Virus record (IMG/VR): IMGVR_UViG_3300017783_005857
Span: 1-32,589 of that record
DNA length: 32,589 nt
Strand: one strand, 5' to 3'
Origin: a virus
Shown: positions 18,902 to 22,769 of the stretch, one piece after another
How the letters are laid out: every line of letters begins with the position of its first letter
Position numbering within the stretch: position 1 is the stretch's first letter
Position numbers and translations under genes: made by a program
Notes under the pieces: model-generated
What the model saw: only the letters and a program-made list of their open reading frames with translations
Database searches by the model: none
What the model was told of the DNA's origin: nothing

Positions 18902-19681
18902 TTATTTGCTCGCTACAGGATAAAATTTGTCTCTAGTTCCAGAAAAGTAGCCACCGTGATCACTTTCCATATATGCTAAGTAAGTTTCTCTACCGGTTTC
19001 TTCTATGTATGTTTCTACTTTTTTAATTAATCTAATAATAGCATCTTCTTTCCAGGAAGATCCGTTATCATATTCCCAATAAATTTGATAATGAATATCA
19101 GGATACCCTTCAAAATCAATACCATGTTTTTGTTTTGCTGATTTCATAGCGTGAAGTTCTACATATTTTCTTCTAATCGGAGAGCGATAATACTCTACCC
19201 ATTCTTCATCATAAACTTCATACACTTTAGCAAATGTATTTTTTTCGGGTACAAACACCCTATCTCCTGCTTTAAACAAAGCATCTAAATTCTGCACTAC
19301 ATGACTAACTTGTGCGGGTTTATTTTTACCTCTTGCACGAATAGGCACATTGTTTTCCATAAGAACTTTTTTAACACGCTGGGGGCTAATGTAAAGTCTT
19401 TTTGCTATAGCGCTTTGATTTTCTCCATCAAGATAGTCTCCAACTATTTGTTTAATTTCACCTGCAGAAAGAGTTTTTGCTCTAGCTTTTTTCTTTAGTT
19501 CTTTTTGTCTTTCTTCTTTTTGTCTAAAGTCTTCTATGATTGCATCTAATCGTTTAGTATTGTAGGCAATACCTAAGTGATCACAACAAGCCTTTTTTGT
19601 CTTGTTTGATTTAATCATCCATATTACTTGTCTGATTTTTGCTTCAGGAATTTCGTTTGTATTTATTCTCGCTCTTGCCAT
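18902..19681 (-). CDS. DNA-binding HTH protein, first gene of the replication operon
   Basis: A 259-aa basic protein with two helix-turn-helix-like segments: about residues 13-52 (KIRQVIWMIKSNKTKKACCDHLGIAYNTKRLD) and about 72-115 (EIKQIVGDYLDGENQSAIAKRLYISPQRVKKVLMENN, resolvase/Hin-type HTH). A C-terminal domain of about 125 residues (RVFVPEKNTFAKVYEVYDEEWVEYYRSP...) is not recognised. The SD GGAGG is the right arm of the 19690-19723 inverted repeat. First position after a consensus promoter suggests a regulator of the replication operon, perhaps binding the palindrome. That is inference. Confidence 0.8.
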   Translation of the reverse strand: MARARINTNEIPEAKIRQVIWMIKSNKTKKACCDHLGIAYNTKRLDAIIEDFRQKEERQKELKKKARAKTLSAGEIKQIVGDYLDGENQSAIAKRLYISPQRVKKVLMENNVPIRARGKNKPAQVSHVVQNLDALFKAGDRVFVPEKNTFAKVYEVYDEEWVEYYRSPIRRKYVELHAMKSAKQKHGIDFEGYPDIHYQIYWEYDNGSSWKEDAIIRLIKKVETYIEETGRETYLAYMESDHGGYFSGTRDKFYPVASK

Positions 19682-19683
19682 TT

Positions 19684-19723
19684 AAAAAACCCTCCATTTT
19701 GTATATTATAACAAAATAGAGGG
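19684..19723 (-). terminator. Intrinsic terminator hairpin overlapping promoter and RBS
   Basis: On the minus strand CCCTCTATTTTGT (19723-19711) pairs with ACAAAATGGAGGG (19702-19690). That is 13 base pairs with one T-G wobble and an 8-base loop, followed by six T (19689-19684). It lies 24 bases past the stop of the membrane-protein gene. The right arm contains the Shine-Dalgarno of the next gene and the loop contains its -10 box. Confidence 0.8.
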
Positions 19724-19733
19724 TAGATGTCAA
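19705..19733 (-). promoter_or_regulatory. Perfect-consensus sigma70 promoter
   Basis: Minus strand TTGACA (19733-19728), exactly 17 bases, TATAAT (19710-19705). Both hexamers are perfect. Predicted start about seven bases downstream, near 19698, leaving a leader of about 17 bases carrying GGAGGG. It would drive the HTH gene and the long replication/nrd run. The -10 box lies in the loop of the inverted repeat at 19690-19723. Confidence 0.88.
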
Positions 19734-19746
19734 ATACAATATATCT

Positions 19747-20601
19747 TTATCTTGCATTATTTAGTAACTGAACTAACGCTTCTTTTGACATTTTTTCTGC
19801 TTGTGTCCTAGTTAGTCCTAATCTTTTCTTTGCAAGTTCTATAGCTTTAAGTTTTGTAAGATTTTCTGCATTAAACAGCTTTTGTTTATTAAAAATCTTA
19901 TCTACTGATAAAATTAGTAACATTAGGGCTAATGGATCAAAACAGAAAATAATAATAAATATTACGATTGTAACAGCGTTTTGTAAATTATCTGATTCAC
20001 CAATTAAATTAGCAACATATTTTATCGGCCCTAATTCTGCCTCAATACTGCTAATTGATAATTTTTCTGTTAGTTTTTCTTGTTCTAACTTTGCAATTAT
20101 GTTTAATTCTTGTTGTATCTGTGATTGAATGTCAGAAATATCATTTTGGGTTTTATCTAGTCCTTTTGATACTGCTCCAAGTTCTATATATTTTCCCATA
20201 GCTTTATTTAAAGTTTCTAGTCTTTGTGTAAGTCTGTCTACTTTTTGTGTGGAAAAATCAATTTGAGTGTCAATAACTGCTACTTTTTGCTCTACTATAA
20301 TAATAGGCATTTCTTGAGCACTATGCCCTTTGGACAGTAAGCCAAAAATACCTAAACTTGTAACTATCATTAACAAGCCTACAATTGGAACTAATATTAT
20401 TTTAGATATATGTTGTAAATCGCTCCAGTGCTGGTGTGTCCATACTGCTGCAACCACTTTACCTAATTCTAATACTCCACCCATAATTGCGACAGGCAGA
20501 AAAGCTGCCGCAAATATTTGCGTCAATCCAATAACACTAAACCATGCAGCTACTGCAGAAATTGCAATAGCAGTTAGGAAGGTTATCCAGACTAATATCA
20601 T
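19747..20601 (-). CDS. Membrane protein with central coiled coil, 284 aa
   Basis: Three hydrophobic helices lie in the first 90 residues (ILVWITFLTAIAISAVAAWF; FLPVAIMGGVLELGKVVAAV; IILVPIVGLLMIVTSLGIFG). A Gln/Lys-rich coiled coil follows (about 105-195), then another helix (AVTIVIFIIIFCFDPLALMLLIL) and a basic tail. Short coil-containing membrane proteins like this occur in marine T4-like phages from memory, without known function. An excellent AAGGAGG precedes the ATG. It follows uvsE closely, so both are probably transcribed from 21710-21738 and end at the 19684-19723 terminator. A role in membrane remodelling or superinfection exclusion is speculative. Confidence 0.8.
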   Translation of the reverse strand: MILVWITFLTAIAISAVAAWFSVIGLTQIFAAAFLPVAIMGGVLELGKVVAAVWTHQHWSDLQHISKIILVPIVGLLMIVTSLGIFGLLSKGHSAQEMPIIIVEQKVAVIDTQIDFSTQKVDRLTQRLETLNKAMGKYIELGAVSKGLDKTQNDISDIQSQIQQELNIIAKLEQEKLTEKLSISSIEAELGPIKYVANLIGESDNLQNAVTIVIFIIIFCFDPLALMLLILSVDKIFNKQKLFNAENLTKLKAIELAKKRLGLTRTQAEKMSKEALVQLLNNAR

Positions 20602-20610
20602 TGCGCCTCC

Positions 20611-21681
20611 TTAAATTGTTTTTGTTTTTAGTTCTTCTCCTGCAAACTCTTCTTCTTGTTTGATAAAGTCATAGAAACCTTGTACGGCAACTTCTTTGTG
20701 TTTTGCCTCAATATCAAAGTCTGCATATTCAAGCATTGGCACATGTCTTGCCATTAGTTCTTCGTCCCAATATGTTTCTGAGTGTGCATTAGGTTTCATC
20801 CAATAAGCTGAATTGTCGGGGTGAAAGGATTGTGATTTGTGGAACAACGGGCGTACACCTCTCCATGACTTGACAGCTTCACGGAAATAGTCGTCTGTGT
20901 GGGAGATATGATCCACGTCTCGCACTTTCCTATTGACCGTTTTCTCGCCAACTTTAACTCTCTCAGTCTCAACCATTCGATGACAGGCATAGTGGTGTGT
21001 GTCGAGGGTACAGCGGATAGGGATCCGTTGGGCAAGTTCAAGTGTGTGTTTAATGTCGTATCCGTTGGGTTTATCTTCATTTTCGACAGATAAGCATCCT
21101 TGGGCATAGTCGGATAGGTAGGGGAAGTGTGTGGCAAAGCGTTTAATACCATCTTCGTGTTTTCCTCCATAAAGTCCTTGTAAGTGAATATTCATAGAAA
21201 AATCTTGAGCGGGCAATCCCATCATTGAGCCATACAAAGCATGATACTCAAGATCTTCGATAGACTTAGTTACAACATCTGGATTATTAGATGCGAGTAC
21301 TGTGTATTGAGCAGGATGAGTAGACAAACGAATACCGTGTTTTTTAGCGGCATTACCTGCAAGTTTAAGAATTTCTGATAGTTCTTCCCAAATTTCTTCA
21401 TACCACGGTTGTGTAAACTCTAGAGTGTAGCAAGGAAATAGCTCACTAGAAATTCTAAACGCACGCAAATTTTGTGGTTGCTTAGGAAAATATGTTGTCA
21501 GTATATCGAGTAATTTTTTACTATTTGCTATAGCTTTTTGTTGTACTTTTTCTTTACCGCCTTCTTTGAGGGCGTAAGTTTTGGTAGTAGTACCAAAATT
21601 GTACCTTTTTGCTAAAGTTTTATCATGCCACTGGCAACACTGAGAGAGTCGCCAATTGGTTTGCGTTTTGTTAAAGTACAT
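20611..21681 (-). CDS. uvsE: UV-damage endonuclease (UvdE/UvsE)
   Basis: A 356-aa TIM-barrel endonuclease that nicks 5' of UV photoproducts. Family motifs with probable metal ligands: FRISSELFP (75-83), RLSTHPAQYTVLAS (H122), SMNIHLQGLYGGK (H166), CLSVENEDKP (E200) and CTLDTHHYACH (D227, H229/H230), then VDHISHTDD. It provides excision repair independent of UvrABC, useful for a phage in sunlit water. Its Shine-Dalgarno AGGAG is the right arm of the 21689-21728 repeat. Family assignment is secure. Confidence 0.95.
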   Translation of the reverse strand: MYFNKTQTNWRLSQCCQWHDKTLAKRYNFGTTTKTYALKEGGKEKVQQKAIANSKKLLDILTTYFPKQPQNLRAFRISSELFPCYTLEFTQPWYEEIWEELSEILKLAGNAAKKHGIRLSTHPAQYTVLASNNPDVVTKSIEDLEYHALYGSMMGLPAQDFSMNIHLQGLYGGKHEDGIKRFATHFPYLSDYAQGCLSVENEDKPNGYDIKHTLELAQRIPIRCTLDTHHYACHRMVETERVKVGEKTVNRKVRDVDHISHTDDYFREAVKSWRGVRPLFHKSQSFHPDNSAYWMKPNAHSETYWDEELMARHVPMLEYADFDIEAKHKEVAVQGFYDFIKQEEEFAGEELKTKTI

Positions 21682-21683
21682 AT

Positions 21684-21728
21684 AAAAACTCCTGATTAGT
21701 TATGTATTAATAATACGCTAATCAGGAG
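21684..21728 (-). terminator. Intrinsic terminator hairpin overlapping uvsE promoter and RBS
   Basis: Perfect 11-base arms CTCCTGATTAG (21728-21718) and CTAATCAGGAG (21699-21689) on the minus strand. The loop can itself form GTATT/AATAC. Five T follow (21688-21684), then the uvsE ATG. It could end transcripts of the Na/Pi gene and would mask the uvsE Shine-Dalgarno in them. Confidence 0.72.
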
Positions 21729-21738
21729 CATCTGTCAA
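21710..21738 (-). promoter_or_regulatory. Near-consensus sigma70 promoter for uvsE
   Basis: Minus strand TTGACA (21738-21733), 17 bases, TATTAT (21715-21710). The -35 is perfect and the -10 has one mismatch. Predicted start near 21703 leaves a leader of about 20 bases with AGGAG. As at 19705-19733, the -10 lies in the loop of an inverted repeat whose left arm is in the spacer. Confidence 0.82.
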
Positions 21739-21784: not shown

Positions 21785-22261
21785 TTATGTTGTAATTTTA
21801 GTTATCCATTGCGCAATAGGTCGAACAAACGGTAACAACGATATCGCCATCAGAAGATTCACACCTGTATGAGCCATTGCAATTCGCAACGTATCACCCT
21901 TCGGCATGCCATCTGAGACAAGAGCACCTGCCAACCAAATAGTACCAGTCGTTCCAATGTTAGCACCAAGCACTGCAGCAATGGCTGCTGGTAGAGGTAC
22001 TGCACCAGATGCAACTAATCCAATAATTGCTGTAGTTGATAGAGAAGATGATTGCCAAAGTAGAGTCATAATAATTCCACCAGCAAACATCCATAAAGGA
22101 CTATGTGTAAAGTACGCAAGATGTTCAATGTTTCCCATAGATTTCATGCCGCCTGCAAACATTTTTAGACCGATATAGAATACAACTAAACCAACAAGAG
22201 TAGTAATTACGGGATTACCTAGTTCCATTTTGTTTACCGTTTTCCAAAGTTTTGTTACCAT
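21785..22261 (-). CDS. Half-size Na+/Pi cotransporter (single PF02690-type repeat)
   Basis: A 158-aa polytopic membrane protein with the Na/Pi-cotransporter signature: LWQSSSLSTTAIIGLVASG (QSSS at 70-73) and AAVLGANIGTTGT (GANIGTT at 99-105). About four hydrophobic helices are visible. Cellular NptA/YjbB-type proteins carry two such repeats in 300 or more residues; here there is one. Start ATG 22261 follows AGGAG by nine bases; an ATG at 22265 in another frame belongs to a short leader ORF. The frame is intact, so it is not an obvious pseudogene. It may dimerise into a phosphate importer for nucleotide synthesis (inference). Confidence 0.87.
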   Translation of the reverse strand: MVTKLWKTVNKMELGNPVITTLVGLVVFYIGLKMFAGGMKSMGNIEHLAYFTHSPLWMFAGGIIMTLLWQSSSLSTTAIIGLVASGAVPLPAAIAAVLGANIGTTGTIWLAGALVSDGMPKGDTLRIAMAHTGVNLLMAISLLPFVRPIAQWITKITT

Positions 22262-22705: not shown

Positions 22706-22716
22706 TATGCACAAAT

Positions 22717-22741
22717 AGGCAGAGGGGTTTCACCTCTGCCT
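22717..22741. terminator. GC-rich hairpin after the four-repeat HTH gene
   Basis: Nine-base perfect arms AGGCAGAGG/CCTCTGCCT with a 7-base loop, about 30 bases past the stop at 22770. The plus-strand side is followed by GTTCTTTTT (good T-tract) and the minus-strand side by ATTTG (poor). It probably works as a terminator, possibly in both directions. Confidence 0.6.
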
Positions 22742-22769
22742 GTTCTTTTTATTTGACTAACAGTTATTA

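Follow-up and report, generated by a model that had tools for sequence, protein, structure and literature searches.

The uvsE Locus

The DNA analyzed here, hereafter the window, comprises 32,589 bases and is a virus contig from IMG/VR. The DNA polymerase, D5-like and D2-like proteins encoded in the window were most similar to those of T5-like phages (Demerecviridae), at about 30% to 40% identity, and the contig was therefore taken to represent a distant T5-like phage. It was also noted that the window encodes a Bmp/PnrA-type nucleoside-binding ABC substrate protein (PF02608; positions 773 to 1855), relatives of which were identified in at least 242 IMG/VR stretches.

The gene for a UvsE-like UV damage endonuclease of 356 amino acids is located on the minus strand at positions 20611 to 21681, with its ATG at 21681. 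It had been named uvsE in an earlier note on this DNA, and this identification holds: the product matched the PHROG endonuclease profile phrog_8420 with an E-value of 2.6e-59, and its matches in named phages were annotated as UvsE or UV-damage endonuclease. Upstream, at positions 21785 to 22261 of the minus strand, lies a co-directional gene for a Na/Pi cotransporter (PF02690). Since the genes in this region are co-directional, transcription from upstream should extend into the segment in front of uvsE, with the cotransporter gene as the expected source of read-through.

This segment contains an element of about 57 bp (21682 to 21738, minus strand), recognized from its sequence, a stringent scan and its recurrence in IMG/VR, which is made up of a promoter, a hairpin, a Shine-Dalgarno (SD) sequence and a T-run. 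In the direction of transcription, the −35 hexamer TTGACA (21733 to 21738) is followed by the left arm CTCCTGATTAG (21718 to 21728), which lies within the promoter spacer; both are invariant among relatives. The −10 hexamer TATTAT (21710 to 21715) lies in the hairpin loop, and the right arm CTAATCAGGAG (21689 to 21699), also seen in folding predictions, includes the SD sequence AGGAG (21689 to 21693) and is directly followed by 5 Ts (21684 to 21688). The promoter, TTGACA-17-TATTAT, is of the sigma70 type, with 11 of 12 hexamer matches, and the arms form 11 of 11 Watson-Crick pairs around an 18-nucleotide loop that contains the −10 hexamer. From the sigma70 spacing, transcription is predicted to start at position 21703 of the minus strand, 7 nucleotides past the −10 hexamer, in the loop and upstream of the right arm. 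The anatomy given in the earlier note was thus confirmed in its parts and in their order, but the T-run does not touch the ATG directly, as 2 bases (AT) intervene.

A companion element with the promoter TTGACA-17-TATAAT was found at positions 19684 to 19733 of the minus strand from its sequence, the scans and a family of relatives. Its arms, ACCCTCTATTTTGT (19711 to 19724) and ACAAAATGGAGGGT (19689 to 19702), both on the minus strand, include one U.G pair; the SD sequence GGAGGG is located inside the arm, and a T-run is present. Downstream is a D2-like gene for 259 amino acids (18902 to 19681, minus strand), which was assigned to phrog_3611 and matched T5-like D2 proteins weakly in tblastn. 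As previously proposed, the window therefore contains 2 elements of the same layout with differing arms, CTCCTGATTAG/CTAATCAGGAG and ACCCTCTATTTTGT/ACAAAATGGAGGGT, and the exact uvsE repeat occurs in it only once.

To put numbers on chance occurrence, the window was scanned for near-consensus promoters, allowing a total of up to 2 mismatches, in which a stem surrounds the −10 hexamer. This stringent scan returned 2 sites, against a mean of 0.05 and a maximum of 1 in 200 dinucleotide shuffles, so that the excess over shuffled controls for which a check had been suggested was found. A looser scan returned 3 sites versus 1.55 in shuffled sequence, which is near background, and the stringent form alone is therefore significant. 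While the looser scan would suit a chance palindrome in AT-rich DNA, this explanation is already contradicted by the stringent scan, by the conservation and by the class-wide permutation test described below, and its probability is negligible. The uvsE element is a real, non-random regulatory element, and most likely a promoter, terminator and ribosome-binding-site mask in one.

The possibility of many copies in this phage was ruled out, as each relative contained 2 to 3 dissimilar sites. Elsewhere in the window, at positions 22714 to 22744, we noted a perfect 12-bp terminator-like hairpin with its T-run on the plus strand, in a region where the genes are on the minus strand.

Conservation among Relatives

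The exact uvsE arms were identified in 16 IMG/VR contigs, which span 2 unrelated gene neighborhoods, and were located just before uvsE in every one of them. In an alignment of 8 sequences from diverged phages, no change was seen in any of the 22 arm bases. Variation was found in the first spacer bases and in the loop, both in its sequence and in its length of 18 or 19 nucleotides. A T-run of at least 4 bases preceded the uvsE ATG in all 7 repeat-bearing alleles, versus 0 of 38 repeat-less leaders; as the sequences are related, the Fisher p-value cannot be read as a true probability. The association of the T-run with the repeat fits, and suggests, a terminator.

Judging from the alignment, the invariance of the uvsE arms exceeds the sequence constraint that a hairpin alone needs, and because of it a protein site may be present at this element. 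The 11-bp repeat could be an operator, at which a phage or host regulator bound to 2 half-sites around the −10 hexamer would repress uvsE, with the hairpin being incidental. The invariance of the arms next to variable bases is what such a site would produce, but the spacing of the half-sites is not constant (loop of 18 or 19), the repeat is accompanied by a T-run, and no second copy was found in the window or, in IMG/VR, in front of any gene but uvsE, a distribution by which one operator reused genome-wide was also rejected.

Covariation within the families was not informative. There were no compensatory arm changes in the 8 aligned sequences of the uvsE family, and the companion family contained a single compensatory pair along with G.U-compatible changes in the left arm, which was no better than shuffles (301 of 500). 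Within-family covariation was therefore discarded as proof of RNA pairing, and with 0 and 1 compensatory pairs these 2 families are by themselves compatible with both a protein site and paired RNA.

Before an exonuclease-like gene of 2 T5-like relatives (L150 near 13555, minus strand; L158 near 15955, plus strand), there is a third promoter hairpin, ATCTTTGTG/CATAAAGAT, which is weaker. Furthermore, the T5-like Vibrio phage Ceto (NC_042094) contains a promoter hairpin, TTTACA..TGCCTAGGTTTT..TATTAT..AAAGACCTAGGCA, near position 2676 of the minus strand, between gp10 and gp9 in the terminal region.

A Class of Elements in IMG/VR

IMG/VR was searched with the pattern TTGACA-N-CTCCT-N-AGGAGTTTT, which fixes the first 5 stem pairs and the AGGAG in the arm, and leaves the −10 hexamer unspecified. 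The pattern was present in at least 120 IMG/VR stretches, with 90 distinct elements among the matches listed. Among these listed matches, 63 of the 90 (70%) had a −10 hexamer (at least 5 of 6 bases) at 16 to 18 nucleotides, compared with 1% to 13% at other spacings, and 97% of the 63 had an ATG directly behind. Their arm pairs were very diverse, and extended inward past the searched seed by a mean of 3.06 bp, versus 0.90 bp with the arms swapped between elements (maximum 1.41 bp in 2,000 permutations). Orthologous leaders of the MazG-like, DsbA-like and MTM families switch pair types on both sides, in a compensatory manner, with the first 5 pairs being fixed by the search. The genes downstream of class elements include MazG-like and UvsX-like genes and those of one transcription-regulator family. 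In a phage of 205 kb, 12 promoter-in-hairpin sites were identified versus 0.8 in shuffled sequence, several of them with the SD sequence in the arm.

Given the stem extension beyond permuted controls and the compensatory pairs in orthologous leaders, these comparisons support selection on the layout, and not on one sequence, across the class. Selection on the design had been argued previously from the 2 elements in the window. It stands class-wide, across many phages, but 2 elements with differing arms in one genome are compatible with protein sites as well, and the uvsE element by itself does not support layout selection, its arms being invariant. Returning to the operator, in the companion and the class elements the arms and spacings are unrelated, and some of these elements contain G.U pairs, which would be tolerated only by RNA of the gene strand. 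We consider an operator at uvsE decidedly improbable.

The mazG leaders of named cyanophages were considered as well (ACG-2014a, P-SSM2, S-SCSM1, P-HM1, Syn1, and ACG-2014f); most of them overlap or abut the upstream gene, and the element was not found in those inspected, nor in the PhiW-14 leader. In another phage, we noted a perfect 13-bp promoter hairpin, AAAACCCTCCTCT/AGAGGAGGGTTTT, whose loop contains TATAGT and behind which an ATG follows after 3 nucleotides (L331 near 10846, plus strand; L332 near 5687, minus strand).

Predicted Folding and Proposed Mechanism

The predicted hairpin energies were −16.2 kcal/mol for the uvsE element and −19.5 kcal/mol for the companion. With both arms present, the predicted unpaired probability of the SD sequence was 0.00 in both elements, and without the left arm it increased to 0.19 for uvsE and 0.78 for the companion; the SD sequence in the uvsE transcript is only partly free owing to a weak alternative pairing. 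Over 65 elements, the predicted value was 0.009 in read-through RNA versus 0.51 in RNA from the element's own promoter, folded from 7 nucleotides after the −10 hexamer, and it was higher in the latter in all 65.

We infer the start site, the termination and the translational silencing at the uvsE element as follows. The host sigma70-type polymerase would initiate within the hairpin loop, and since the start lies inside the loop, the resulting uvsE mRNA would carry the right arm only, with a free SD sequence. A transcript arriving from upstream would contain both arms and form a GC-based stem followed by 5 Us, so that most such transcripts should terminate just before the uvsE ATG, and in RNA that escapes termination the SD sequence would be sealed. 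Termination and masking of read-through, as put forward in the earlier note, is the best reading of the element. The 18-nucleotide loop and the 5 Us are not ideal terminator features. On balance, we consider it likely that the uvsE element combines a promoter, a terminator and a mask of the ribosome site, and that uvsE expression is set by where the transcript starts.

Comparison with Known Systems

Promoter-early stem-loops (PeSLs) are composite promoters and terminators at the borders of exchanged genes. Such cassettes were reportedly described in T4-like phages by Arbiol in 2010 and by Comeau in 2014. We compared the uvsE element with PeSLs as presented in 2 secondary descriptions, where they are the promoter-early stem-loop cassettes of T4-like phages (PMC4503421, PMC3950731). 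In our scans, the promoter-in-hairpin layout was found at 8 sites in RB49 versus 0.1 in shuffled sequence, and at 5 sites in T4 versus 0.35; very probably, these sites are the PeSLs that Arbiol and Comeau reported. They resemble the uvsE element in having a sigma70-type promoter with the −10 hexamer enclosed by a stem-loop, and may also share with it the combination of a promoter with a terminator and a position at the borders of exchanged genes. However, the RB49 sites mostly have the SD sequence outside the arm and no T-run, whereas the uvsE element has both an SD sequence in the arm and a T-run. Furthermore, the uvsE element occurs in a T5-like phage with 2 to 3 dissimilar sites, whereas PeSLs occur as many similar copies in the hyperplastic regions of a T4-like genome.

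Because most of the RB49 and T4 sites lack the SD sequence in the arm and the T-run, masking is inessential to the layout. The element could be mainly a terminator that insulates the promoter, with SD masking as a by-product of the closeness of the stem to the gene. This fits the RB49 sites and most T4 sites, where the SD sequence is not in the arm, as well as the T-run that goes with the uvsE repeat and the GC-rich stem base that adjoins it. Yet the SD sequence was sealed in all class members tested (the search pattern having fixed AGGAG in the arm), and the leaders of T4 alc and alt.-3 have the SD sequence in the arm without a T-run. We regard a mainly terminating role as somewhat unlikely, and favor the composite in which masking has a part.

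Masking as such is already known. In T4 gene e, soc, 49, and I-TevI, long transcripts from upstream have their SD sequence sealed, and in transcripts starting inside the structure it is free (PMC3014915). Folding predicts the same for the uvsE and companion elements, with the SD sequence paired in the upstream transcript and freer in their own. The inner promoters of gene e-type masks are, however, late (gp55) and serve timing, whereas the uvsE promoter is of the sigma70 type and its T-run suggests termination as well. The T4 alc and alt.-3 leaders in our scan share with uvsE a near-consensus early promoter, a −10 hexamer in the loop and a GAGG SD sequence in the right arm, but have no T-run and a −35 hexamer of TTTACA. 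In one of the secondary descriptions, TATA-plus-inverted-repeat motifs before many ORFs of the haloarchaeal virus HGTV-1 are likened to PeSLs (PMC3950731); as described there, they share a promoter-like box and an inverted repeat with the uvsE element, but the promoter is archaeal.

The arms CTCCTGATTAG/CTAATCAGGAG, with an SD sequence in the right arm, a T-run and an ATG as in uvsE, were also found in leaders of IS256-like transposases of Anaerococcus, Peptoniphilus and relatives (L282 to L327), the family name being taken from the look of the transposase. These leaders differ in having a loop of 10 to 13 nucleotides and no TTGACA or −10 hexamer around it. The shared arms probably represent convergence, as a match of about 6 bp outside the SD sequence is all that is needed. 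Read-through protection in insertion sequences was looked for in the literature, with no result. What we regard as new, with PeSLs compared through secondary descriptions, is that an SD sequence in the arm, a T-run and a sigma70-type promoter are combined, that a T5-like phage carries this combination and that it is spread among uncultivated phages.

Gene Exchange at the uvsE Element

In the uvsE tree, repeat-bearing genes were found in 3 places, corresponding to at least 2 to 3 changes. The leader and first codons in the window matched the T5-like clade, and from about codon 4 the uvsE gene matched repeat-less relatives, with about 90% nucleotide identity to those in other neighborhoods (L013, L014, L016). 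By this comparison, the uvsE gene in the window was swapped, with the border at the start codon. The same leader was joined directly at the ATG to another type of uvsE in L040, and leader and uvsE together were found in a second, unrelated neighborhood (L046, L040). With 2 gene swaps bordering the element and 2 sites compared, this exchange of leaders and bodies resembles PeSL shuffling.

The genes next to uvsE also varied. Among closely related phages, the slot just upstream of the element contained non-homologous phosphate-uptake genes (window, 21785 to 22261; L160, 88 to 792; L043, 8965 to 9921; L011, 7491 to 8450; L024, 8978 to 9931). Their products were of the Na/Pi cotransporter type (PF02690), PHO4-like (weak, below the cut-off), PstS-like periplasmic-binding-protein type (PBP; PF12849), or a protein of 317 to 319 amino acids with no Pfam hit and a PiT-like look. 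Downstream, uvsE is followed by a gene for a 284-amino-acid membrane-like protein of no known family (window, 19747 to 20601; also L018 and L041), which follows repeat-less uvsE genes in other phages as well and is absent from the close relative L011.

In L040 and in the window clade, one leader is fused to differently derived uvsE bodies, with the joint at the ATG or directly behind it. This, together with the non-homologous phosphate genes upstream in close relatives, is what would be seen if the element were kept chiefly as a recombination junction, a shuffling cassette of the PeSL type with regulation being secondary. We consider this unlikely, as the breakpoints were compared at 2 sites only and selection on the leader would likewise preserve it during gene swaps.

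Implications

The composite promoter, terminator and mask at uvsE may belong to a widespread and as yet unnamed class of phage cassettes, in which a single hairpin serves as promoter spacer, terminator and SD mask, and translation requires that the transcript was initiated at the cassette's own promoter. We propose this tentatively, with slightly less than even confidence. If true, single genes such as uvsE, mazG and dsbA-like genes could be inserted anywhere in an operon, free of operon control, and such operon-independent insertion would favor gene exchange among T4-like, T5-like and other phages. The class would offer a rule, concrete and testable, for the independent regulation of phage accessory genes within dense operons. 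It would also supply a compact part of about 57 bp with a promoter, a terminator and a ribosome-binding-site lock that is readily assayed, and would extend a concept from T4 phages to T5-like and many uncultivated phages.
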